A stretch of 55,216 bases of DNA from Pirellulales bacterium (GCA_028066245.1 JALCBR010000017.1:1-55216); one strand, 5' to 3'; shown: positions 356-12,313, numbered from the stretch's first letter. Made by a program: numbers and translations. The notes: generated from the letters alone by a model not told the origin.

Positions 356-2128
356 TCAGTCCCACCACCATTGACCGCGGTCCAGGTTGTTGGGCTCAGT
401 GCGATCCTGGATGCTGGACAGCCGGCCGGAGCTGTCCTGCTCAATGGCGGACGCCTTGACAACTTCACCGGGGCGGAAGGTCACGCCACCGCTGGCCACT
501 GCCAGAACTTGCGTGCGGTTGACGATCTTGTGATTCATGACCGTCTGCACCATCTTGGGCTCGTAGCCCAAGCTAACGGGGAACTTGGCGTCATCGGCAA
601 AGGTTGTCATGTGCCAGCCAACCTGTCCCGGCAGATCCTGTGTGTTGATCAGCGCCGCGACGATGGCCAGGTCAAAGATGTTCTGTAGTTCCGCATACAC
701 AGGGTACTTTTGCGCCATCGCCTCAAAGTGCTTGGTGAAGTTCTCCGCGAAGGCGGCCGTTTCTCGATCGGACTGGCCTGTGTGCACTCGCCGGCCATCA
801 TCAGCGATCATCTCGTTCTCACTCTTGACCATCACGCCCTGGCCGCGAAGTTCATACGCATTCCCGGCTTTGCTGGAGCGAATGGAATCATAGTTGGTGG
901 TGAACCACCACCGCAGCACACCCATCGGTGGAGCGGCTTCGCCGGGCTTCACTTTGACCATAGAGAGATAACTGGGGACGCCAGCGGCGCCGGCTTCCAC
1001 GCCGATTCCCGTAAGCTTCATTCGGTAATCCGCTTCAAACAAAACGCGTGCGACGTGCGTGCGAGGATCGACTCCGTAGAATTCGATTTCTTGCTCGGCA
1101 AGCTGATCGCGAATGCCTTTGAGCCAGCGGTTAGTCTGACCTGGACGAAGCGGACGCCGGGAGGACTCTGCGATATAAGCCTTCGTGCGGGCGAGGTGCT
1201 CTTGGATCGGTGTGATCGAGCAGCCGAAGTTCTTGTCGCCATCGGCCATTTCCCGCAGCACAACCAGCAAATCATCCAGACGCAAAACCGGGCGTCCTGT
1301 GGCTGTGCCAATGACGCGGCCTTCGGCATCGCTGTGCCAATCGCTGGCCGATCCGGCGATGACGATGTCACCGGTCTCTGGATAGGTGAAGACATACTCA
1401 ATCTTTTGCAAGCCAGCGAGGAACTGCATCTCCTCGTCAATGGGCTCACCCAACGCAAGTTTCAACTGAATGGCCCGCTCCAAACGCGTGAGCGAGACTT
1501 TGCGGAGCAGAGATTCATCGTGAACGCTGCCGATACGCTGGCTGCGGGCAGCGGCGTCTCGCAACAGGCTCAAAGAGTTGTCCTGGTCTTTGTTGATGAG
1601 CGATTCAACCAATCCCTCAGCATCGACGCGAACACCACCACCACCTTGGAATTGCTCAACTTGTCCGTTGCCGGTGCCATCGTCCAGCCAGCCGTTGCCA
1701 TCAGAAGCGCCGGTTGTGGAGGTAATCAAATTGATCAAATCACCAAAGTTGGCCTGATTTCCGCCAGCAGCGCCACCCGATCTTGAACCGCGAGTTGAGC
1801 GATCCGCAGGCTGGGTTCCAAGTGGTTGCGCGAGGATCTCCGCAAAAGAATGCGCGCGACTGAGATCATTGCTGACCTCGGCCAATGTTGTCAGAGACTG
1901 TTTCCGCATGCCGGCGGCAGCTTGCGCCTCGGCGATCTTGGAGAGCATTGCATCGCGGAACGCGGGTTCCGCAGCATTCGCCATGGCCATCGCCGGAGCG
2001 AATTCCCCGGCACGAAGGTGTGCCTGGAACGCATCCTCATCCATCCCCAGGGACACCGCTGGAAAAGCGAGTGCGACTCCGAGGGCGGCGAGAATCGCCA
2101 CGGAAAGTTTGGAGCGGAATTGCCTCAT
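356..2128 (-). CDS. DUF1598 secreted protein
   Basis: This 590-residue protein starts with a clear signal peptide (about residues 1-29, basic start then an Ala/Leu/Val core). A Gly/Asn-rich low-complexity stretch follows near residues 110-165. The conserved part, about residues 235-500, carries the planctomycete signature of YVFTYPETGDIVIAG, then GVDPRTHVARVLFEADYR and a WWFTTNY motif, which I recognise as DUF1598. Its biochemical role is not known; export points to the cell envelope. The start is well supported by GAGGAG 8-9 bases upstream. It is transcribed alone and ends at the shared terminator at 287-327. Confidence 0.85.
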   Translation of the reverse strand: MRQFRSKLSVAILAALGVALAFPAVSLGMDEDAFQAHLRAGEFAPAMAMANAAEPAFRDAMLSKIAEAQAAAGMRKQSLTTLAEVSNDLSRAHSFAEILAQPLGTQPADRSTRGSRSGGAAGGNQANFGDLINLITSTTGASDGNGWLDDGTGNGQVEQFQGGGGVRVDAEGLVESLINKDQDNSLSLLRDAAARSQRIGSVHDESLLRKVSLTRLERAIQLKLALGEPIDEEMQFLAGLQKIEYVFTYPETGDIVIAGSASDWHSDAEGRVIGTATGRPVLRLDDLLVVLREMADGDKNFGCSITPIQEHLARTKAYIAESSRRPLRPGQTNRWLKGIRDQLAEQEIEFYGVDPRTHVARVLFEADYRMKLTGIGVEAGAAGVPSYLSMVKVKPGEAAPPMGVLRWWFTTNYDSIRSSKAGNAYELRGQGVMVKSENEMIADDGRRVHTGQSDRETAAFAENFTKHFEAMAQKYPVYAELQNIFDLAIVAALINTQDLPGQVGWHMTTFADDAKFPVSLGYEPKMVQTVMNHKIVNRTQVLAVASGGVTFRPGEVVKASAIEQDSSGRLSSIQDRTEPNNLDRGQWWWD

Positions 2129-2782
2129 CTTCGTTACTCTCCTCTGCGGTGCTGCTGTTCGTAAACCACGACCGCCAAAGAAAAAAGCGCTAAGTCAAAC
2201 GTGATCAGCCTGTTGATTGTCAACAGGCTGGGTGATCCCAGGATGGGATGCCAAACCGCGGCCCGAATGCACCGCGATTTGCGAGCCCTGCGCGAGTCAG
2301 CCTCGGCGTGCGAGGGACTATCGCTACTGTGCCATGCGGGGGTTCGATGAGTCAAGAAAATTGTCCCGAACACCCCGTGTTTAGCGATTCTTTGTAGGCT
2401 CCCCATTTTCCGGCTCGAGCAACTTTTCCCTGATACACGATATTGCTACGCCAATGTGGGCGTTAAGCATCCCATGTCGGCAAGCAAACTCCACGCTCGC
2501 GTGAATTGCCTGACTCGTGACTTCCATGGGCCTGCTTGGATCAGACTGATGCGCATCTGGGAAGATCTGCGCCCGAACTCTTTGCATAGTCAAGTGTTGC
2601 AAAATGATCCTGCGCCACAGGAGTTCCCAGCGTTCTGCGGCACCCGTTGACGGAAAATTCCACAAGTCTTAGCATTCCGATTAGGGATGGGCCTGACATC
2701 TTCGCGGGACTCACGAGCGGTGACGATCTCCGCAGGCCCACTGCCTCCTTCGATTTTGACCGCATATCCCGGAGCACTCGCT
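2129..2782. other. long intergenic stretch with one hairpin
   Basis: No convincing gene lies in these 654 bases. A minus-strand frame of 94 codons at 2381-2665 is open but resembles no family I know. The only structure seen is the perfect hairpin at 2206-2230. Promoters for the two divergent genes must lie here but no good -10/-35 pair stands out. Confidence 0.5.
2206..2230. repeat. perfect 11-bp hairpin with 3-base loop
   Basis: CAGCCTGTTGA (2206-2216) is followed by TTG and its exact reverse complement (2220-2230). It sits about 80 bases upstream of the DUF1598 start codon. No T-run follows closely on the plus strand; on the minus strand a run of six T lies about 20 bases further on. It could be an operator, a leader structure or an old terminator. 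Confidence 0.5.
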
Positions 2783-3103
2783 ATGCCGCTGTTCGAGGTC
2801 GAGACTGAGGCGCATATCATCATCACCTGGGCTGCAAACGAAGACGACGCGACAGCCGTGGTGAACGAGGCCTATCCGCATGATCGCGTCGTTCGCATGA
2901 CCAAGCGCCCGCGGGATACGTGGGTGATCTCGAAGTCAGCCCTTGGTATTTCTGGAAATCTTGATGCCTGTTCGACCGCGCGTGATTGCCTCTCCAAGGC
3001 ATCAGGCGACAAGGTCAGCGCTATCCGACTCTACATGCAGGAAACCGGCGTCGACCTGACCAACGCGCGCAAGGCGATCGAGTCGAACCTGGTCGGTTGG
3101 TAG
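2783..3103 (+). CDS. small protein with L7/L12-like C-terminal segment
   Basis: I start at the ATG at 2783 because GGAG lies 8 bases upstream; an upstream ATG at 2687 would add 32 residues that look non-coding. The product has 106 residues. Its last 32 residues (GDKVSAIRLYMQETGVDL, then TNARKAIES) follow the pattern of the ribosomal protein L7/L12 C-terminal domain, where a Lys-Val/Ile-Ile-Lys helix is followed by TGLGLKEAKDLVE. The N-terminal 70 residues do not look ribosomal. In other bacteria such solo segments occur in small uncharacterised proteins. It may bind a partner in the way L7/L12 binds translation factors, but that is speculation. Confidence 0.65.
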   Translation: MPLFEVETEAHIIITWAANEDDATAVVNEAYPHDRVVRMTKRPRDTWVISKSALGISGNLDACSTARDCLSKASGDKVSAIRLYMQETGVDLTNARKAIESNLVGW

Positions 3104-3157: not shown

Positions 3158-6100
3158 CTATTGCTGGTCTGCGTAAAGCGGAAGGTTGCGGTAGTAGACT
3201 TCTAGCATGAGCAGGTTCAAGCAAGTCAGGTAGATTCGCCCACCGTTGTCCCCCCAACGATCTCTCTTGGGGCCCAACGGGTTCCAGCTTCCGGACATTG
3301 GCCCTGAAGTGGTTTGCGACTGCACGAGAAACGGCCGCAACTGGTTGTTCCAATCATCCCAAGCAGGGCCCTGGAGTTGGAAGAGAATCTGCGTCCCGTA
3401 ATACCAGTAATAAGCGTCCCGTTCTGACTCGGAATAAGCCCCCTCTGGAGCCTGGCCGCGGGTGCCTGGCAAGTTCATTTGAAGTTTCCGAGCGCCGGTC
3501 AGCAGGCTTTGATCCGTCTTGTTTCGGCTGACATACAAGCGCATGAGCATGCCTTCGGCCGTCATGGCCAATGACGGCGTTCGCTGATGGAGCTGCTCAG
3601 ACCCCGGTCGGTAGATGTAAGTTGCGGGGTTGGAGGGTGCTTCCGCTGACCTCAACCAGCGATCAACTCCCGAGTAGCACTTCGGATCGACACTCAGTCC
3701 GGCTAATTCGCCGCTCTTGAGCGCCATCATTTGCCAGCCGGAAACGGACGTGTCCGTGCCCACGCGCGGAGCGTATCGCCATCCGCCTAGTACAGGCTCT
3801 TGGGCGGCGGCGATGAAATCCAAAGCCCGCTGTGCCGGGACGCGCAGGTTTGGGTCTTGCGTCATGCCGTAGGCTTCGCACAGGGCAATCGCCGCGATTC
3901 CATGACTGTAAAGCCATGTGAATTTGGATCCGCCAACCCCGGAGAACAGGTCACCATCTTCCTGCTGATTGTCGATCAACCAAGAAAGTGCTGCGGTAAC
4001 TTCATCTTGGTACTTTCCTCGCTCATGCGTGTAGCCTGCACCCAGGAAAGCCAGTAAGGACAAGCCAGTCGCCGCGCTGTCCGATTCCATCGAGCCTTCA
4101 CCGGCTTCAGCGCCGTAGTTACGTCCGCGCGCGAACTCGTTCAAGCTCCAATGCCCGTCAGGTTCTTGATGCCGAGCCAGAAACTCCAGTCCACGCTCGA
4201 TCGCGGCTTCAGAACTAGCGTTTCCTCCCCGGTCTTCGGCCAGTTCCGCACGCCGTCCCGGATCACGATCGCGAAACGCGGCGGGAACATCGTCGGCTTT
4301 CAAATCGGCAGCTAACGAGCCGGACCGCTTGTCCAAGTTGAATCGTCTGGGTGAAGTGTCCAACACGTCACTGTCATCTCTGGCGTGCCGGCTCAATTGG
4401 CCTGGGTCACCCAGGATGTCATTGTTCACTCCTCCCGCGCCAGGTGTCCGTCTCCCGCGCGCGAGGAGACTGTTGGTTTCACTCCTGGTTGGTTTTGATG
4501 CGGCCGGCCCCAAAGTCCCCACATCCGCGCGAGCCCGCGATTCACCGCCTGGTTGAGGGCCCGGGTCATCCTTAAGGGCCGAACCGGCAGTCAATCCGAC
4601 GATCTCATTTCTCCGCCGCGACGAGCGCCCCGGCGTGTCTTCACCCAGTTGGGGCCCATTGGCGGCTCCGCCGGAGGCGCGCGAAAGCGGTTCCCTCGAC
4701 AGGGCGACATCGCCTGTTCCGCCACCGGGCAGTTGGCCGCCGACACGATTGCGAGTTCCCGAAAGTTCGGTGCCTGATCGCTCTCCGGAAACTCCGGTTG
4801 TCGGTCCACTATCGGCCACACTTGATCCCTCATTGGTAGCGATGAGTGTTTCCTCGCCTCCCCCTGCTGCGGCCGGCGCCGCACTCAATTCGCCTGCATC
4901 ACGGTTCGAGCGAGATCCTGCCAGGCGGTTATCACTTCCGGAGAGTTGGGGCCGATTCCCGCGACTGGATGAAGGGGCAGAAAGACCTCCGCTGGCCAAA
5001 TCGGCGTTGTCCGATATCGAGTCTTGCGAGCCGCTTTGTCTGCGACGAGCGTTGAGAGACCCATCGTCCGCCAGCCGATTTCCACGATTGGGTGCTTCCG
5101 CCAATTGGGGTGAATCACCTGTGGAGCGGCTTCCGGCGATGTTTTCCGCGCCGGTTGTGTCATCGGCCGAGCCAGGATTCAAGACATTGGCGGAACCAGA
5201 CCTGCGGAGAATGCCAGAGCCCTCACTTCCGGGATTGAGCGACGGCCGCGAGTTGCTGGATCCCCCGGAAGTCTGAGCGGCCAACGACGAATCGCCGATC
5301 GCTGAGTTGTTGTCCGCGCTCATTCCACCACCGGAATCTCTCCGTTGTGATGCTCCGCCGGCAGCGCCCTCATTTCGGGCGACGGTATTGGATGAGTCCA
5401 TGAGTCCCGGCGTTTGCCCGGTCGATTCGGCGATGGAAGGAGCCCCGGAGGGGTCATCCGCGGCCTGATCTCCGCCGGCCAGTTGGCCAACGCTTGAGCG
5501 ACTCATGGCCACAGGCTCTCCCTGTCCGACATTTGGGCTGCCGATCCCGGTCTGCGAACCTGAGCGCGTCATTTGCGTGCTGGGGAGCGCCCCTTCCCGA
5601 GTGGCGGGCAGGTTGCCGCTGCCGGCCGCGGGTCGGCTCACCGCGACTCGCTCACCACTTTCCGATCTCCCAACATCGCCCGCAGCTGGCCGCAATTCGC
5701 CTGCGGAACGATTCGAGGCTCCGGCCGTTGCTGCTGGCTCCAGCGGCACTGAGCGGGCCGCGACAAGTCCGCCCCCTGATTGCCGTGCTGCTGGAGAAGA
5801 ACCGGGTGACGCTTCGGCCAAACTTGGCTGAGCGGACGATCCGCCGGCCTGTTGCATCCGCTGGCTGGATAAATCAGCTGGAGAAGGCGCAGAGGATGAC
5901 GCGACATCGCCACGGCGAGCGGACGTCTCCGCCAGCGAGCTGTCGTTCCGCGTCGCGCCAGCCTCGGACGGCTGCAACGCCACGTCATTGGCGGTGGAGT
6001 TGTTCGTCGAATTGTTAGACGGCATGGCCGTGGGCGCAGGGTTCGCAGTCGGCGAATCGCTCAAGGCGCTGCGGGAATCGTTGCGGGCTAGTTGCGCCTG

Positions 6101-7288
6101 GGCAGAGTCATTGATGGTGGGTTGCAATTGCTGTGAATCTCGTCGGGCAAGCTGCGAATCATTGATCTCCGAGTTGGTCGCCGTGTGGCCGGAATTCGTA
6201 TTGTGACGTTGGGCCGGTAACTCACTGCGGTTTGTCGCGACCGTGGGTTGTGGCTGCGCCGGCCGATTGACATTCGTCTCCGCCAGCGGCTGTGGGATCG
6301 CTGGGGCGCGCACGCTACTGATTTGTGGTGATGTGACGCTGCGCGACACGGGCGACGCATCGGAGGAAACATCCGGCCGCGGTTGATCTGCAACGCGGCG
6401 TTGCAGAGTCGCATCCGTTTCCACGGCCACGGCAGTTGGCCGCGGCTGCGGATCAACGCGCTGTCGCAGCGAGGGATCGACCGGCTGTTGTCGCTCAACA
6501 GGCGTTGGCTCGGAATTCAGTTGCCGTTCAACGTCAACATCTTCACGAGGCATGGCCGGAACTTGCGCCGGATCACTGGGTCGCAACCGGTCCGCAATCT
6601 CTGAACGGCTCAGACTGCCGCCGGGCGATGTGCTTCGACGGGGGACAGCGACCTGCCGGTTCATAGCGATGTTGGGGTCCGGGACATCTGGCACCGTGGT
6701 GGGCTCATTGTCCTGGGGTCGAGTCTCCGCTGCCGGCTGGTTGGAATCTGGGCGAACGTCCAAACGCTCTTGGTCGAATGTTTGGGCTTCGGTGGGCTGT
6801 GTCAGCGGGTTTTCAAAGTGTTGTGATGGCTGGTCGGGAACATACTCGGGAACCTGAACCAACTGTTCACCCAATGTCTCGCTGGAAGGCTCGTCTGACA
6901 CGGCCACCAGCGAAAAGCCCAACTCGTACATAGCCACGATCAGCCAGAAGTAGCAGAAGAGCGCCACCACGATCGAAAGCTGCATCCGACGATTCTTGAT
7001 TCGTGATTGCAACTTGTGGGTGCCGATCAACAGACCGATGAGAATGATGGCAATCCCGGCCAGGTGAGTCCAAGCATTGTAGAAGAATCGCGAGTCATCG
7101 AACCGGCTCAGCGCCACGACAACGCCTGCCAGACAGGCGGCCAACAAGACGAGCATGGCATTGATCGGCCACATCTGCTCGTCAAAGTTCGCAGCGCCTG
7201 ACCGTTGGACTTGTCGGATGACTTGTCGCGATTTGGCCATAGTCTGATGAACGAATGAAAACTTCCGACGCTTGGCGACGTCAGCCAA
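3158..7288 (-). CDS. giant membrane-anchored protein with C-terminal alpha/alpha-toroid
   Basis: This 1376-residue protein has three predicted membrane helices (about 42-60, 72-90, 103-125). They are followed by about 890 residues of Ser/Pro/Arg/Gly/Asn-rich, probably disordered sequence, then a folded domain at about 1028-1376. That domain shows QW-type motifs of the squalene cyclase/prenyltransferase toroid fold (QEPDGHW near 1041; AAQEPVLGGW near 1161) and the planctomycete motif TSVSGWQMMALKSG, but no DxDD catalytic motif, so a cyclase reaction is unlikely. With the N-terminus inside, the linker and toroid would face the periplasm. The ORF opens with TTG at 7288, 19 bases after the ExbD-like stop; an ATG at 7240 (residue 17) is the alternative and neither has a good ribosome binding site. 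It is last in a row with TPR, ExbB-like and ExbD-like genes. Confidence 0.85.
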   Translation of the reverse strand: MADVAKRRKFSFVHQTMAKSRQVIRQVQRSGAANFDEQMWPINAMLVLLAACLAGVVVALSRFDDSRFFYNAWTHLAGIAIILIGLLIGTHKLQSRIKNRRMQLSIVVALFCYFWLIVAMYELGFSLVAVSDEPSSETLGEQLVQVPEYVPDQPSQHFENPLTQPTEAQTFDQERLDVRPDSNQPAAETRPQDNEPTTVPDVPDPNIAMNRQVAVPRRSTSPGGSLSRSEIADRLRPSDPAQVPAMPREDVDVERQLNSEPTPVERQQPVDPSLRQRVDPQPRPTAVAVETDATLQRRVADQPRPDVSSDASPVSRSVTSPQISSVRAPAIPQPLAETNVNRPAQPQPTVATNRSELPAQRHNTNSGHTATNSEINDSQLARRDSQQLQPTINDSAQAQLARNDSRSALSDSPTANPAPTAMPSNNSTNNSTANDVALQPSEAGATRNDSSLAETSARRGDVASSSAPSPADLSSQRMQQAGGSSAQPSLAEASPGSSPAARQSGGGLVAARSVPLEPAATAGASNRSAGELRPAAGDVGRSESGERVAVSRPAAGSGNLPATREGALPSTQMTRSGSQTGIGSPNVGQGEPVAMSRSSVGQLAGGDQAADDPSGAPSIAESTGQTPGLMDSSNTVARNEGAAGGASQRRDSGGGMSADNNSAIGDSSLAAQTSGGSSNSRPSLNPGSEGSGILRRSGSANVLNPGSADDTTGAENIAGSRSTGDSPQLAEAPNRGNRLADDGSLNARRRQSGSQDSISDNADLASGGLSAPSSSRGNRPQLSGSDNRLAGSRSNRDAGELSAAPAAAGGGEETLIATNEGSSVADSGPTTGVSGERSGTELSGTRNRVGGQLPGGGTGDVALSREPLSRASGGAANGPQLGEDTPGRSSRRRNEIVGLTAGSALKDDPGPQPGGESRARADVGTLGPAASKPTRSETNSLLARGRRTPGAGGVNNDILGDPGQLSRHARDDSDVLDTSPRRFNLDKRSGSLAADLKADDVPAAFRDRDPGRRAELAEDRGGNASSEAAIERGLEFLARHQEPDGHWSLNEFARGRNYGAEAGEGSMESDSAATGLSLLAFLGAGYTHERGKYQDEVTAALSWLIDNQQEDGDLFSGVGGSKFTWLYSHGIAAIALCEAYGMTQDPNLRVPAQRALDFIAAAQEPVLGGWRYAPRVGTDTSVSGWQMMALKSGELAGLSVDPKCYSGVDRWLRSAEAPSNPATYIYRPGSEQLHQRTPSLAMTAEGMLMRLYVSRNKTDQSLLTGARKLQMNLPGTRGQAPEGAYSESERDAYYWYYGTQILFQLQGPAWDDWNNQLRPFLVQSQTTSGPMSGSWNPLGPKRDRWGDNGGRIYLTCLNLLMLEVYYRNLPLYADQQ

Positions 7289-7307
7289 CCGGTGCGTTTT
7301 GTCGCCG

Positions 7308-7787
7308 TTACTGCTCGCGTGATCCTGGATTGATCACGGCCTCTTTGAAGTCATGAATGCCGGCTGCACGGCACGCGTGACGCGCTTTGACAACATAGTC
7401 ATAAATGACCCCCCTGTCCGGTCGGATCACGACGGGCTGGCTGTTGTGACTCTTGAGGTAATCAAGCAAACCTTGTTCCGTATACTCCTGCCTGGAAAGC
7501 ATGTATTTGCCGCTCTTCAGAACATTGATGAAGATTGTCTTGGGTTGTGCGGTCAAAGGCAAAGATTGACTGGATTCGGCCAGTTCAACCTCCATCGAGC
7601 GCTCTTCCTCCTCAAAGCGGGTGGCAACAAGGAAAAAGATCAGCAGCAGGAACACGACATCAATCAACGGCGTCAAACTCAGCGTTGAGAGCGCCCTGCC
7701 TTTCTTGATTGAGACGGTCATGTTCGTTTCCGATTTGTCGCTGGCTGTTGACGTCGCCTGTTGCGGGGTGTTGGTTGACGGCCACAC
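7308..7787 (-). CDS. ExbD/TolR family biopolymer transport protein
   Basis: The 159-residue product has the ExbD/TolR layout: a short cytoplasmic start, one membrane helix (about 36-56, LTPLIDVVFLLLIFFLV) and a periplasmic domain. Asp43 in LTPLIDVV is the expected proton-pathway aspartate. The frame begins with GTG at 7787, directly after the TGA of the ExbB-like gene; an ATG at 7721 (residue 23, MTVSIKK) with a weak GGA upstream would give a length closer to the family. Together with the ExbB-like channel it should form the inner-membrane motor that uses proton-motive force to drive a long periplasmic partner. Confidence 0.93.
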   Translation of the reverse strand: MWPSTNTPQQATSTASDKSETNMTVSIKKGRALSTLSLTPLIDVVFLLLIFFLVATRFEEEERSMEVELAESSQSLPLTAQPKTIFINVLKSGKYMLSRQEYTEQGLLDYLKSHNSQPVVIRPDRGVIYDYVVKARHACRAAGIHDFKEAVINPGSREQ

Positions 7788-8822
7788 TCATTTTCGCTTG
7801 CGTTCCGGCGCGGCGGCGGTGGGCGCCGCGCCGTTCTTCCCGATGGTGGCCTTGGGGGCAGACCTTTCACTGGTTCGTTCGCCTTCTTCGGCGCCCTCGC
7901 CGCGACGGAGTCGCAGCTTGCCTTCATATTGCTCCAACTGCGGTAACATGTTGAGTAGCAGTTCATCGATCTCGCGAAAGTTTGCCTGAATGCGCCCTTC
8001 CAACCAGTGCGCGAGCACAGCGGCGGGAATTGCCACCGTCAGACCAGCGAACGTTGTCACCAAGGCCGTGTAGATGCCCTCGGCCAGTTGTTCGGCCTTG
8101 TTGGTCGCTACGGCGCCGGAGGCCGTCTGAGCAAAAGCCTGAATCATGCCAAAGACCGTTCCCAGCAAACCCAGCAGCGGCGTGACGCCAGCCGCCAGGT
8201 TGAGCGGGCGGACATTGGCGTAGAGTTTGTCGGCTTCCCGTTCGCTGGCTTCCTTGACTGTATGTTCCACTTCCGAATGCGGCCGACCCACTTTGAGCAG
8301 TGCCGCGCGAATGACGTTCGAGGCGGTCGATGCATACTGCTGGCAGATCTTGTACGCCTTGCGCGGATCGAGCCCTCCGGATGAACGCGAAGCTTCCCCC
8401 AACGCAGCCACGAGTTCGGAAGGCAATATCCTGCCTCGGCGAATGGCGATCACACGCTCCACGCCAAAGACCAGCGAGATCAACGCGAACAACGCGATCG
8501 GCAGCATCAGCCACCGCGAGTTCTCGTCAAACATCAGCTCAATCATTCGCTGAGTGCCGATCTTTTCCCGATTCGTCTTTGGCGGGGAAATCGCCGCGGC
8601 GTCCTCGCTGTCGGCTTCGTTGTTTTTGTCGTCGTTGAACGCTTTGTCCATGCGTTGCCGCCCGACAGGGCCCATGTCGTCTTGAGACTGTGCATGGGTT
8701 GAACGGGACGCCACCATGGCCGCATAAAACAGCGCGGAAGCCAGCAGCACGACGAGCAGCACCCGCTTACTCAGACTGCCAAAGATGTTTGCAAACATTG
8801 AGCGATTTCTCATCTCGCGCAT
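7788..8822 (-). CDS. MotA/TolQ/ExbB proton channel family protein
   Basis: The 344-residue protein has the channel core at about 200-285, with two helices (207-232 and 250-272) carrying VTPLLGLLGTVFGMIQAF and LVTTFAGLTVAIPAAVLAHW, and an earlier helix at 103-122. An extra hydrophobic segment at 20-38 followed by a charged loop makes it longer than TolQ/ExbB (about 230-245); this may be a signal peptide or a fourth helix. The last 45 residues are charged and low-complexity. AGGGA about 8 bases upstream supports the ATG at 8822. It would oligomerise as the stator pentamer around the ExbD-like dimer encoded next. Confidence 0.93.
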   Translation of the reverse strand: MREMRNRSMFANIFGSLSKRVLLVVLLASALFYAAMVASRSTHAQSQDDMGPVGRQRMDKAFNDDKNNEADSEDAAAISPPKTNREKIGTQRMIELMFDENSRWLMLPIALFALISLVFGVERVIAIRRGRILPSELVAALGEASRSSGGLDPRKAYKICQQYASTASNVIRAALLKVGRPHSEVEHTVKEASEREADKLYANVRPLNLAAGVTPLLGLLGTVFGMIQAFAQTASGAVATNKAEQLAEGIYTALVTTFAGLTVAIPAAVLAHWLEGRIQANFREIDELLLNMLPQLEQYEGKLRLRRGEGAEEGERTSERSAPKATIGKNGAAPTAAAPERKRK

Positions 8823-8917
8823 GATTTTTCCCTGAACAGTCCCTCCGCCGATGGCGCGGGCCTACGCGTGAGTTGAAGGGCTTGAGGTTGAATGCGTCGG
8901 TTAACAGGGCATTGCGG

Positions 8918-11900
8918 TCAACCGCCCAACGCTTTGATCCGGTCTTGTGCTTGGGACGCCTGGTCACTCTCTGCGAAGTTGTTCACAACTTCACGATAGC
9001 TTTCCAAGGCTTCCTGTGGTTTGTTGAGCGCCTCAAAACAGCGACCCGCCTCGAAGTGGCTCGCCGCTTGCCATTTGGGATACCCAAATCCGTAGGCGGC
9101 GCGGAAGAAGTTACGAATCGCTTCTTGGTACTCCCGTTTGGCGTAGTAGACTTCGCCGACCATAAAGCGAGCTCTGGCTGCAACTTCCCGGTTGGTCATG
9201 GTCGTGACCTGCTCGAACACGGCCAAGGCTTCGTCCGGTTTGCCCTGGTAGTTCAAAGCAAAGCCCCGTTCAAACGTCGCCTCCGGGGCCAGGTCGTACT
9301 CGGCAAACAGATCCTCTGATTGGCTCAAAGCCGCCAGTGCGGCATCGTACCGTTCAAGTTGGTTGGCCGCCTGCGCCGCGTGAAAGCGGGCGAACGCAAC
9401 GAACTGCGGATTCGAGACATCTTCAATCTTCGCAAGGATCCCCAGCGCTTTCTCATAGTTATTCTGCTTGAAATAGCACTCTCCCTGCATGAAGCGGGCA
9501 TCGTCTGCCAAATCTGCGCTGGGATAGGCACGGAGTTGATAAGCAAAGGTCTTTTCAGCGTTGGTAAAATCGTCCTGGCGGTAGTAGCACCAACCGAGCT
9601 TGTGAGTTGCCTTGGCGCCTAACTCTTGGCCACGCTCCGCGGTCAAGATGTTTGCTTGGACCAGTTCCTTGACTTTCTGTTCCGCGGAATAGTACTTGGC
9701 TGCCGCCTGCTTGAAATCCTCTTGTTCGTAGTAGTACTCGCCCAGGTTGTGGAGAGCTTCCGGAGCCAATGGACTATCCGCGTTATTTTCAACCAGTGTT
9801 GAGAATTGCTTGGCCGCGTCTTCGTCGTTTCCCGCGTCTTTGAAGCTCCAGGCGAGTTCGTAACGGACGCGATCGGCCGCAGAATAATTGGGGTTGGTCT
9901 TAAGGATCGATGCGAACACCTGCTTAGCATCGTCAAATTGCTCCTGGCTAGTCAGACAGCGTCCCAACTCGTAAAGGGCATCTAACCGCTCAGCCTCGTT
10001 GGTGGCCGAGGAAGCGAACGCCTGCAAGTCCTCGATGGCTTCATCAAACTTGCTTTGGGACTTGCGAGCGAGCCCGCGAACATAACGAGCCCGATTTCTG
10101 GCTTCGTCATCGGCAGCGCTCTGAATCGCGCGGTTCGCAGTCTGCTCGGCCCCGGCGAAATCTCTCGCGCTAAATTGCGTCCACGCCAGCCCATACAAGG
10201 CGCTGGCGGCAACCGTCGTCCGGGGCCATTGGTTGATGACCAATTGATACTCGCCCGAAGCGGTCTGGTAATCTTGTGCGTCGTAGGCGATTTCTCCTAG
10301 CAAGTAATGGGCTTTGGCCAGCCTCTCGTCATCGTGCTGACCGCGCGTCAACTCCGTGAGCTGCGCCTTGGCGTTTGAGAGTTCGCCTGCAACTCGGTAG
10401 GCAGCGGCAAGTTCTAACCGAGCGTCCGCGGCTTGTCGCCAGTTGGAATCGGCATTCAAAGAACTGGTCAGCGCGGCAATGGCCTTCTCAGAACTCGCCA
10501 ACTTGTTGAAGCTGGCACCCAACAGATAAAACGCCTGGGCTTTCTTGGCCGAGTCTTGCAAGGTGCGCGCCAGCGGCTCCAGTACCGCGACCGCCTGTTG
10601 GGGTTTGTCTTGGGCATACACAGCCAATGCCTGGCGAACCTTCCAATCTTCGATTTTGGCATGCCGCGGGAAAGCGTCGATCAGTTCTTGATACGCATCC
10701 GAAGCTTGCTCGAATTGACGCAACTGAAGCTGGCTTTCCGCCGCGACATACAGCACATCAGCCATCAAATCGCCCTGCGGAAACTTGCTCAGATAGGCAG
10801 ACGAGAAGCGAATGGCGTCCCGGTATTTTTCGGCTTCATGGGCGGAAAAACTGGCCATGTACATGGCTTGCTCCGCGGCCGGGTGATTGGCATACTCTTC
10901 CGCGATCTTGGCAAACGCCTCCATGGCTTCGCCTCGCCGGTCACCCATGGCATAGAGTGCGTCAGCCCGATCGAGCATCAAGTCGACGGCGATCTTGCCG
11001 GGATCGTTCCGCAGAGCGGCTTCAACTACTGTAAGTGCCGCGGCGGCGTTACCCTCCCTGAGGTGGCACTGACTAACCCAATGCGCTGCCTCCGCTCCGA
11101 CCTCCCCTCCTGTTGCCGCTATGGACTCCAAGCTGCGCCGCGCTGACGAGAAGTCGCCAGCCAAGTAATAGCACTTCCCGCCTTCCAGGCGGGCAAAAGG
11201 GATCTGTTCGGACTTCGTGAAACGCCGTGGAACTTCCGCATAGAGTTGAGCAGCATCGCTGTACTTTTCCTGGCGGGCGAGGCATGACGCCTGCCGCACA
11301 AGGGCATGATCCGCGAACTCAAAGCCCGGCGTCGCTGCGGCCGCCTGGAATAACTTTGCTGCTGCGGCGTAGTCCTGTTTTTGAAATAACGCCTCGCCGC
11401 GGCGCATGCTGACTTCGGTCGCTAGGTCGTGATCAGAAAAATGCTGTAGGAACGTGGCGAACGTGCGCTCCGCCGCATCAGGCTGGTTGAGTTCTTCCTG
11501 CGTCACGCCGAGTGCGTACATCGCGTCGGCAGCCAGACTGTGATTGGCAAAGTCCTTGATCAGCCGAGCGTAGCTCGCCGCCGCGTCTGACTTCGCGTTG
11601 TTTTCGTACTGAGCTTCGGCCAGGTAATACAGCCCTTCAGCACGAAAATCACCCCGCGGATAATTTCTGGTCAGGCTGGTCAGAGTTGACAAAGCTTGAT
11701 CCAACTGACCGCGTTCGCCGGCTCGCCCCAGGTTGAGTTGCGAGACGCCCAGATAAAGGGTGGCTTGCTCGGCAAGCTGGAAGTTGCGCACGGCGAGAAC
11801 TTGGGTGAACTGGGCGGCCGCGCTCTTGTGATCGCTAGTCTGAAAGTACGAGATGCCCAGATAGTGTCGCCCGTGTGTGTTGCGCTCGTGGTTGGGATAG

Positions 11901-12313
11901 CTTTCGACAAACTTCTTCCACTCGTCGATCGCCAGGTCATACAACCCACGGTCATACAGGGCCGCCGCAGCGCGATACTGGCGAATCCCGTCGTCAGTTT
12001 GGGTTCCGCCTTGCTGACCAGCCGGCGACGAATTGCCACGCTGCGCCACGCGTTGAGCAAAAGCTCCTGAAGGGAGAACGATCATTCCCCAACACGCAAG
12101 CAAGCAAACGCCAATGAAGGAGGTCTGTGAGCCGGCCAGTTTCTGTTCAGCTTGGAATGCGGCTGAGCCTCTGCAATTCACTGACATAGGGGAACAATCC
12201 TCAAGCAAGATTCTTGATCGACAGGAAGGATGCATGTCCAGCTTGATCTGCGAGTTGACGGCTTCGCATGGGATATCCTCCAGTGGCGGCGGCTGGCTAC
12301 CGCCGTTTGCCAT
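8918..12313 (-). CDS. giant TPR-repeat periplasmic protein
   Basis: The product of up to 1131 residues is almost entirely tetratricopeptide repeats from about residue 105 on (for example ALYDRGLYDLAIDEWKKF, then many A/Y/G/L-spaced helix pairs), like an enlarged CpoB/YbgF or BamD scaffold. Two starts compete. ATG at 12313 has an excellent AGGGGA 8 bases upstream and is kept here. ATG at 12187 (residue 43) has GAGGA 10 bases upstream and places a good signal sequence (SFIGVCLLACWGMIVLPSGAFAQ region) nearer the N-terminus. Either way the repeats should be exported. In Tol-Pal operons the TPR protein CpoB is encoded with the motor genes, so its place before ExbB/ExbD fits a scaffold role in the same machine. 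Confidence 0.85.
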   Translation of the reverse strand: MANGGSQPPPLEDIPCEAVNSQIKLDMHPSCRSRILLEDCSPMSVNCRGSAAFQAEQKLAGSQTSFIGVCLLACWGMIVLPSGAFAQRVAQRGNSSPAGQQGGTQTDDGIRQYRAAAALYDRGLYDLAIDEWKKFVESYPNHERNTHGRHYLGISYFQTSDHKSAAAQFTQVLAVRNFQLAEQATLYLGVSQLNLGRAGERGQLDQALSTLTSLTRNYPRGDFRAEGLYYLAEAQYENNAKSDAAASYARLIKDFANHSLAADAMYALGVTQEELNQPDAAERTFATFLQHFSDHDLATEVSMRRGEALFQKQDYAAAAKLFQAAAATPGFEFADHALVRQASCLARQEKYSDAAQLYAEVPRRFTKSEQIPFARLEGGKCYYLAGDFSSARRSLESIAATGGEVGAEAAHWVSQCHLREGNAAAALTVVEAALRNDPGKIAVDLMLDRADALYAMGDRRGEAMEAFAKIAEEYANHPAAEQAMYMASFSAHEAEKYRDAIRFSSAYLSKFPQGDLMADVLYVAAESQLQLRQFEQASDAYQELIDAFPRHAKIEDWKVRQALAVYAQDKPQQAVAVLEPLARTLQDSAKKAQAFYLLGASFNKLASSEKAIAALTSSLNADSNWRQAADARLELAAAYRVAGELSNAKAQLTELTRGQHDDERLAKAHYLLGEIAYDAQDYQTASGEYQLVINQWPRTTVAASALYGLAWTQFSARDFAGAEQTANRAIQSAADDEARNRARYVRGLARKSQSKFDEAIEDLQAFASSATNEAERLDALYELGRCLTSQEQFDDAKQVFASILKTNPNYSAADRVRYELAWSFKDAGNDEDAAKQFSTLVENNADSPLAPEALHNLGEYYYEQEDFKQAAAKYYSAEQKVKELVQANILTAERGQELGAKATHKLGWCYYRQDDFTNAEKTFAYQLRAYPSADLADDARFMQGECYFKQNNYEKALGILAKIEDVSNPQFVAFARFHAAQAANQLERYDAALAALSQSEDLFAEYDLAPEATFERGFALNYQGKPDEALAVFEQVTTMTNREVAARARFMVGEVYYAKREYQEAIRNFFRAAYGFGYPKWQAASHFEAGRCFEALNKPQEALESYREVVNNFAESDQASQAQDRIKALGG

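Follow-up and report, generated by a model that had tools for sequence, protein, structure and literature searches.

The window, by which we mean the whole 55,216-nucleotide stretch of Pirellulales DNA that was analysed, contains four genes in series on the minus strand, in the order TPR, exbB, exbD and a giant arm gene. Inspection of its open reading frames confirmed the places and strand that an earlier note had assigned to all four. The first gene of the cassette (8918..12313) encodes a 1131 aa TPR protein, so named on the basis of matches to PF13432, PF13174 and other families. It is followed by a gene for an ExbB/TolQ-type motor protein of 344 aa (7788..8822; basis PF01618), a 'long ExbB' with an N-terminal hydrophobic segment, and by one for an ExbD/TolR-type motor protein with a pore Asp (7308..7721; basis PF02472), which measures 137 aa from an ATG at 7721 or 159 aa from a GTG at 7787. 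The fourth gene (3158..7240) encodes the arm, comprised of three TM helices, a disordered linker and an alpha/alpha toroid, with a length of 1360 aa from an ATG at 7240 or 1376 aa from a TTG at 7288. The N-termini of orthologs suggest that the ATG is to be preferred for both the arm and ExbD. Residue numbers used below count from the TTG for the arm and from the GTG for ExbD Asp43. The description of a 1376-residue giant with a linker of ~890 residues held with respect to its three hydrophobic helices, its linker (884 residues) and its toroid, which was supported by a model, but the start is likely the ATG. Beside the cassette, the window encodes a DUF6793 protein (2687-3103, plus strand) and a DUF1598 protein (356-2128, minus strand), neither of which is a conserved neighbor of it, and the flanking genes offered no clue to function.

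The assignment of the second and third genes to an ExbB/TolQ channel and an ExbD/TolR protein with a key Asp43 proved sound. ExbB matched PF01618 in Pfam with an E-value of 2e-24 (86 bits, cut-off 22.9), and the best PDB match of its family profile was TolQ (8odt, 7e-18). The pore residues Thr222, Thr256 and Thr257 were conserved in all relatives compared, and Pro266 was conserved as well. With a profile score above the cut-off and conserved pore Thr residues, the protein satisfied the test for a proton channel of the ExbB/TolQ/MotA type. ExbD matched PF02472 at 1e-21 (77.6 bits, cut-off 25.4), its PDB matches were ExbD (7ajq) and TolR (9ddm), and Asp43 was present in 37 of 37 sequences. It likewise satisfied the ExbD/TolR test, which combines a profile score above the cut-off with the essential TM Asp.

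The arm possesses exactly three hydrophobic helices (residues 42-60, 72-90 and 102-120), and its features all lie on the minus strand. TM1 and TM2 map to 7013..7171 (residues about 40-92), and TM3, a docking helix of the TonB/TolA type, to 6923..6991 (residues about 100-122). The consensus of TM3 is Ser109-x3-His113, with the His found in 32 of 35 orthologs and the Ser four residues earlier in 28 of 35; the window's own helix instead bears Ala109 (6962-6964) and Tyr113 (6950-6952). Ser-3X-His belongs to the SHLS motif, which mediates the binding of TonB to ExbB and of TolA to TolQ (PMC12905483). About 59 of the 69 TM-bearing toroid proteins had SxxxH in its strict form, compared to 15 of 700 TM segments from other proteins at the same loci, one of these 15 belonging to a vWA arm. 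The Ser-x3-His motif was also present in seven TonB-family loci of the order. Three arms lacked TM1 and TM2 and retained TM3 alone, which is the topology of TonB. In four distant arms a PD40 beta-propeller (PF07676, 1e-22 to 3e-32) separates TM1 from TM2, suggesting that the three-helix anchor could have arisen by loss of this domain, an origin that we infer rather than observe.

The low-complexity linker (4262..6922) comprises 884 residues and is rich in S, A, G, P and R. Over 35 arms its length ranged from 384 to 1188 residues (median 721). Such linkers are far longer than that of TonB. Since positively charged residues precede TM1 and sit between TM2 and TM3, the positive-inside rule would place the linker outside the inner membrane. 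Within the segment 6800..6862, after TM3, lie two short conserved motifs (LVQVPEY... and FENPLT). A T-L-P-D-Y-like motif 20-29 residues after TM3 was found in 18 of 35 arms, compared to 0.5 expected in shuffled sequences, and an F-E-x-P-V-E-like motif, mostly 37-47 residues after TM3, in 22 of 35, compared to 0.6 expected; both patterns were defined post hoc, after the sequences had been viewed. The D-box of TonB lies just after the TM helix and pairs as a strand with the ExbD dimer (PMC10907165, PMC10771500). The motifs of the arm are candidate equivalents of a D-box or motor box, and their strand formation and binding to ExbD are inferred from sequence alone. No TonB_C or TolA domain was detected in the arm by Pfam at E ≤ 0.1, its C-terminus being the toroid, and Pfam returned no VWA match in the arm.

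The SHLS Ser and His contact a conserved Ser on TM1 of ExbB or TolQ (PMC12905483). In the cassette, the TM1 position corresponding to residue 113 of the window's ExbB was Ser in every system with His or Asn in the arm, about 70 systems that include a few duplicates. This Ser was absent from exactly those systems whose arm has lost the docking residue, namely the window (arm Ala/Tyr, ExbB Ala), the L074 system of genome G071 (arm Ala/Val, ExbB Gly) and then genome G040. In the latter, the arm has Tyr, and the ExbB, encoded on another contig, has Ala, as we had foretold before its sequence was examined. For two of two among 70 systems, the naive exact probability comes to 4e-4, with relatedness not modelled; because G040 and the window share family and ancestry, the co-variation amounts to only two independent events. 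In the window and G040, Tyr has replaced the docking His and Ala the Ser of ExbB, a pair of changes specific to this lineage. A sequencing error at Tyr113 was rejected, as G040 has Tyr too. Since Ala and Tyr replace Ser and His, docking of the window's arm differs in detail. Residue 113 of the window's ExbB presumably corresponds to the TM1 Ser of E. coli ExbB, with which we aligned it. As TM1 lay outside the region covered when the PDB was searched with the ExbB profile, this equivalence rests on that alignment and on the text of PMC12905483. The natural co-variation of His and Ser provides a check on the motor-arm interface described in recent cryo-EM work.

The C-terminal alpha/alpha toroid (3161..4261) spans about residues 1010-1376, or ~370 residues. 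An AlphaFold2 model made with 56 relatives reached a pLDDT of 92.7, and the nearest solved folds were squalene-hopene cyclase (2sqc), drimenyl diphosphate synthase and sugar epimerases. Alignment to 2sqc with VIA-align gave a Z of 26.5 over 297 residues at an rmsd of 3.3, which satisfied the test for an alpha/alpha-toroid fold. In Pfam the giant displayed a weak sequence match to the squalene-hopene cyclase C-terminal domain, and the toroid sequence did not reach the cut-offs of the cyclase families. At the position of the cyclase acid motif the toroid reads Asp1179-x-Ser1181 in every one of the 56 sequences. In a profile alignment to the prenylcyclase 6ij1, Ser1181 occupies the place of the second Asp, which we take to be the proton donor. 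The acid motif of class II terpene cyclases (DxDD/DxD, with its proton-donor Asp) was thus absent from all 56 toroid sequences, and on this ground the toroid was rejected as a terpene cyclase.

These observations bear on whether the toroid could be a membrane-tethered enzyme acting on glycans or isoprenoids, which the motor would regulate or position rather than pull. The toroid has numerous invariant positions (Trp, Tyr, Asp, Glu and Arg), unchanged even at 37-40% identity, which resemble an active site; the fold is common to terpene cyclases, sugar epimerases and GH76, and paralogs score just over the cut-off of PF09492 (pectic acid lyase). The invariant Ser and the missed cyclase cut-offs nevertheless speak against catalysis, and neither the docking helix nor the co-variation is explained unless force reaches the head, so that we regard an enzyme of this kind as unlikely without dismissing it. 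The invariant residues suggest a conserved ligand, although whether they face the cavity is undetermined. The replacement of the cyclases' proton-donor Asp by an invariant Ser makes binding a likelier role for the head than catalysis; this remains an inference.

The TPR protein matched many TPR families in Pfam. Judging by eye from the N-termini of its orthologs, it probably carries a signal peptide, with no lipobox evident. A suggested link to CpoB was not upheld: the protein scored 93.2 bits against the CpoB equivalog PRK10803, below the cut-off of 383, and passed that of TIGR02795 only through the summing of 12 repeated TPR stretches. Its similarity to proteins of the PorW/SprE type (3e-37, under the cut-off), together with the gliding role proposed for the vWA analogue, raises the question of whether the arm and TPR protein power surface motility or adhesion, as in an AglRQS/Glt- or GldLM-like machine, rather than outer-membrane stabilization or import. 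Yet no additional gene family is conserved beside the cassette, and the docking motif is of the TonB/TolA type, leaving a motility or adhesion machine a rather improbable account. The role of the TPR protein in a TonB/TolA-type machine is inferred only.

The toroid domain is widespread, being present in 145 of 146 genomes of the order and in 208 of 244 of the phylum. We collected 34 long-frame orthologs of the arm from the order, 32 of whose loci had enough upstream DNA. The four-gene order, for which the earlier note had proposed a search, recurs: TPR-ExbB-ExbD-arm was found at 26 of 32 loci, more than expected by chance, amid varying flanks. The remaining loci displayed ExbB-ExbD-arm (1), ExbD-arm (3), TPR-arm (1) or none of the partners (1). 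In four of these six exceptions (G086, G015, G005 and G059) TPR and exbB sit together at a second locus, indicating that the parts of the cassette are kept despite splitting of the operon. The commonest further gene family occurred at 12 of 57 loci, leaving the four cassette genes as the sole widely shared neighbors. Blastopirellula marina DSM 3645 has ExbD-arm, and Stieleria tagensis and strain K23_9 have the full cassette. Two outcomes would have refuted the earlier interpretation, namely a toroid gene lying mostly away from exbB/exbD and a TonB or TolA homologue paired with the same motor. Neither was met; ExbD lies directly upstream of the arm at 30 of 32 loci, and no such pairing was seen.

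In a tree of 73 toroid domains, the long arms grouped into a single supported clade (35 rows, 99/94). Other motor-linked toroids formed a second clade apart from it, and the window's genome holds a member of each (the window and L086); solo toroids occupied other branches. The notion that any toroid gene must adjoin exbB was rejected, as many SxxxH toroid genes are solo. Nine solo toroids, three of them in the window's genome, have helices of the (P/A/S)WxxSxxxH type with no motor gene adjoining, several having a CxxC...CxxC zinc-ribbon-like stretch before the helix; among the three, L089 bears Asn. In other classes of the phylum, five loci encode toroid proteins with a TonB-type helix in tandem, two or three at a time. 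At L202 (1847-9595), ExbB and ExbD-like genes, a toroid arm of 590 aa and a downstream TPR gene stand in an arrangement closer to the vWA gene order. In genome G036, TPR and arm (L040, contig C86) are adjacent without neighboring ExbB or ExbD, and no close homolog of the cassette ExbB was found in that genome; the motor of the second clade may serve this arm. The frequency of solo toroid proteins in the phylum and the missing motor genes next to the G036 arm would fit adjacency through shared regulation only, with the toroid protein uncoupled from the motor. Such an explanation is hard to reconcile with the co-variation of arm and ExbB, its foretold third case in G040 and a gene set that is kept amid differing surroundings and survives splitting, and we hold it to be very unlikely.

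Searches of the window's genome with the TonB_C and TonB_2 profiles gave no matches, and a single weak match to a TonB-receptor plug was noted (L128; G000:C109:3272-3463). Seven ExbB-like loci were identified there, including the window cassette, the second toroid cassette (L086), L083 and L085. L083 (contig C43, 9372-10460) encodes a vWA-type transducer, with a PWLISVIFH helix and a VWA domain (PF00092, 3e-4), beside ExbB/ExbD and TPR genes. The ExbB-like gene of L085, beside an OmpA-family gene, looks like MotAB.

Taken together, the synteny, the Ser-x3-His helix, the His/Ser co-variation and the lack of a TonB_C or TonB_2 match in the window's genome support the view, advanced in the earlier note, that the giant protein is an arm driven by the motor in place of TonB or TolA, and we consider it very likely that the adjoining motor drives it. 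Architecture, conserved synteny, the TonB-type helix, the co-variation of arm and ExbB, the predicted toroid fold and the missing cyclase acid were shown by the analysis itself. In the mechanism that we propose, an ExbB pentamer, assumed by homology, and an ExbD dimer would form the inner-membrane motor, with TM3 docking on the exterior of ExbB in the position that TonB and TolA occupy. The ExbD dimer may capture the short motifs just after TM3, and the disordered linker, several hundred residues long, would span the periplasm, the periplasmic side of linker and toroid being deduced from the positive-inside rule. The toroid would then bind a conserved partner located at, or close to, the outer membrane, the cell wall or the TPR protein, on which rotation of the motor is presumed to pull. 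That the toroid binds a pulled partner is our best guess, with the partner unidentified. Against this proposal count the Ala and Tyr in place of Ser and His in the window's own arm, linkers that greatly exceed TonB's in length, the lack of adjoining ExbB/ExbD in G036, the many SxxxH toroid proteins without an adjoining motor gene, a co-variation resting on only two independent events, and the absence of ligand, localization or phenotype data. On balance, we judge it probable that the cassette encodes a PMF-driven trans-envelope transducer with the giant protein as motor arm and the toroid as a head pulling an envelope partner. A more tentative extension, which we hold with somewhat less than even confidence, is that toroid arms bearing the TonB/TolA-type helix (some with their own motor, many solo or in tandem) constitute a third, phylum-wide class of proton-driven transducer in the Planctomycetota that took over Ton/Tol work and pulls a conserved envelope ligand in the toroid cavity. 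How planctomycetes energize their outer membrane is largely open; a TonB_C protein is encoded in 46 of 146 genomes of the order, elsewhere than in the cassette, versus toroid proteins in 145 of 146. Since the four-gene module is conserved and genetically compact, the question is testable by deletion and structure.

Comparison with known systems places the cassette among several partial relatives. With squalene-hopene cyclase and other class II terpene cyclases (2sqc, 8pak, 6ij1) the arm shares the alpha/alpha-toroid fold (Z about 26), but it has an invariant Ser for the proton-donor Asp, and its membrane anchor is a TonB-type helix. The Tol-Pal system (TolQRA, TolB, Pal, CpoB) resembles it in the TolQ/TolR-like motor, the long arm and a periplasmic TPR protein, as well as in the PD40 propeller repeats within some distant toroid arms. 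Unlike Tol-Pal, the cassette has no TolA C-terminal domain, its TPR protein measures about 1100 aa, and, as far as the locus itself is concerned, neither TolB nor Pal lies beside the motor: no extra family exceeds 12 of 57 loci, and the annotated neighbors in the window are neither. TonB-ExbB-ExbD is matched in the ExbB/ExbD motor, the Ser-x3-His helix of most orthologous arms and the candidate D-box, whereas the cassette has a toroid tip, lacks a TonB_C domain and has no conserved TonB-dependent receptor gene adjoining.

The closest parallel is the set of vWA-tipped transducers with an SHLS helix reported by Williams-Jones et al. in 2025, which L083 of the window's genome resembles. In the PVC group their genes often follow a TPR gene, tolQ and two copies of tolR (PMC12204202). 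They share with most toroid arms an SHLS-type helix, a proline-rich or disordered linker and a globular tip other than that of TonB, and their TPR-tolQ-tolR-transducer order is matched in the 26 of 32 toroid loci, with one exbD rather than two. The vWA transducers have a linker of about 100 residues and usually two tolR, whereas in the toroid system the linker measures 384-1188 residues, there is a single exbD, and most arms carry two additional membrane helices. The terms toroid, squalene and prenyltransferase are not mentioned in the text of PMC12204202, and no toroid-tipped arm was found in the open-access literature, subscription papers and preprints being outside the scope of the search. 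The statement that no system with a toroid in the arm position has been described thus stands for the open literature searched, although the vWA tips, published in 2025, provide a precedent for its principle. A tip other than that of TonB is therefore already known; apparent novelties are the toroid tip, the length of the linker and the anchoring by three helices. These findings suggest that a toroid-tipped arm on an ExbB/ExbD-type motor represents a previously undescribed route for envelope energy transfer and extend the vWA finding, in that 5:2 motors seem to take interchangeable tips.
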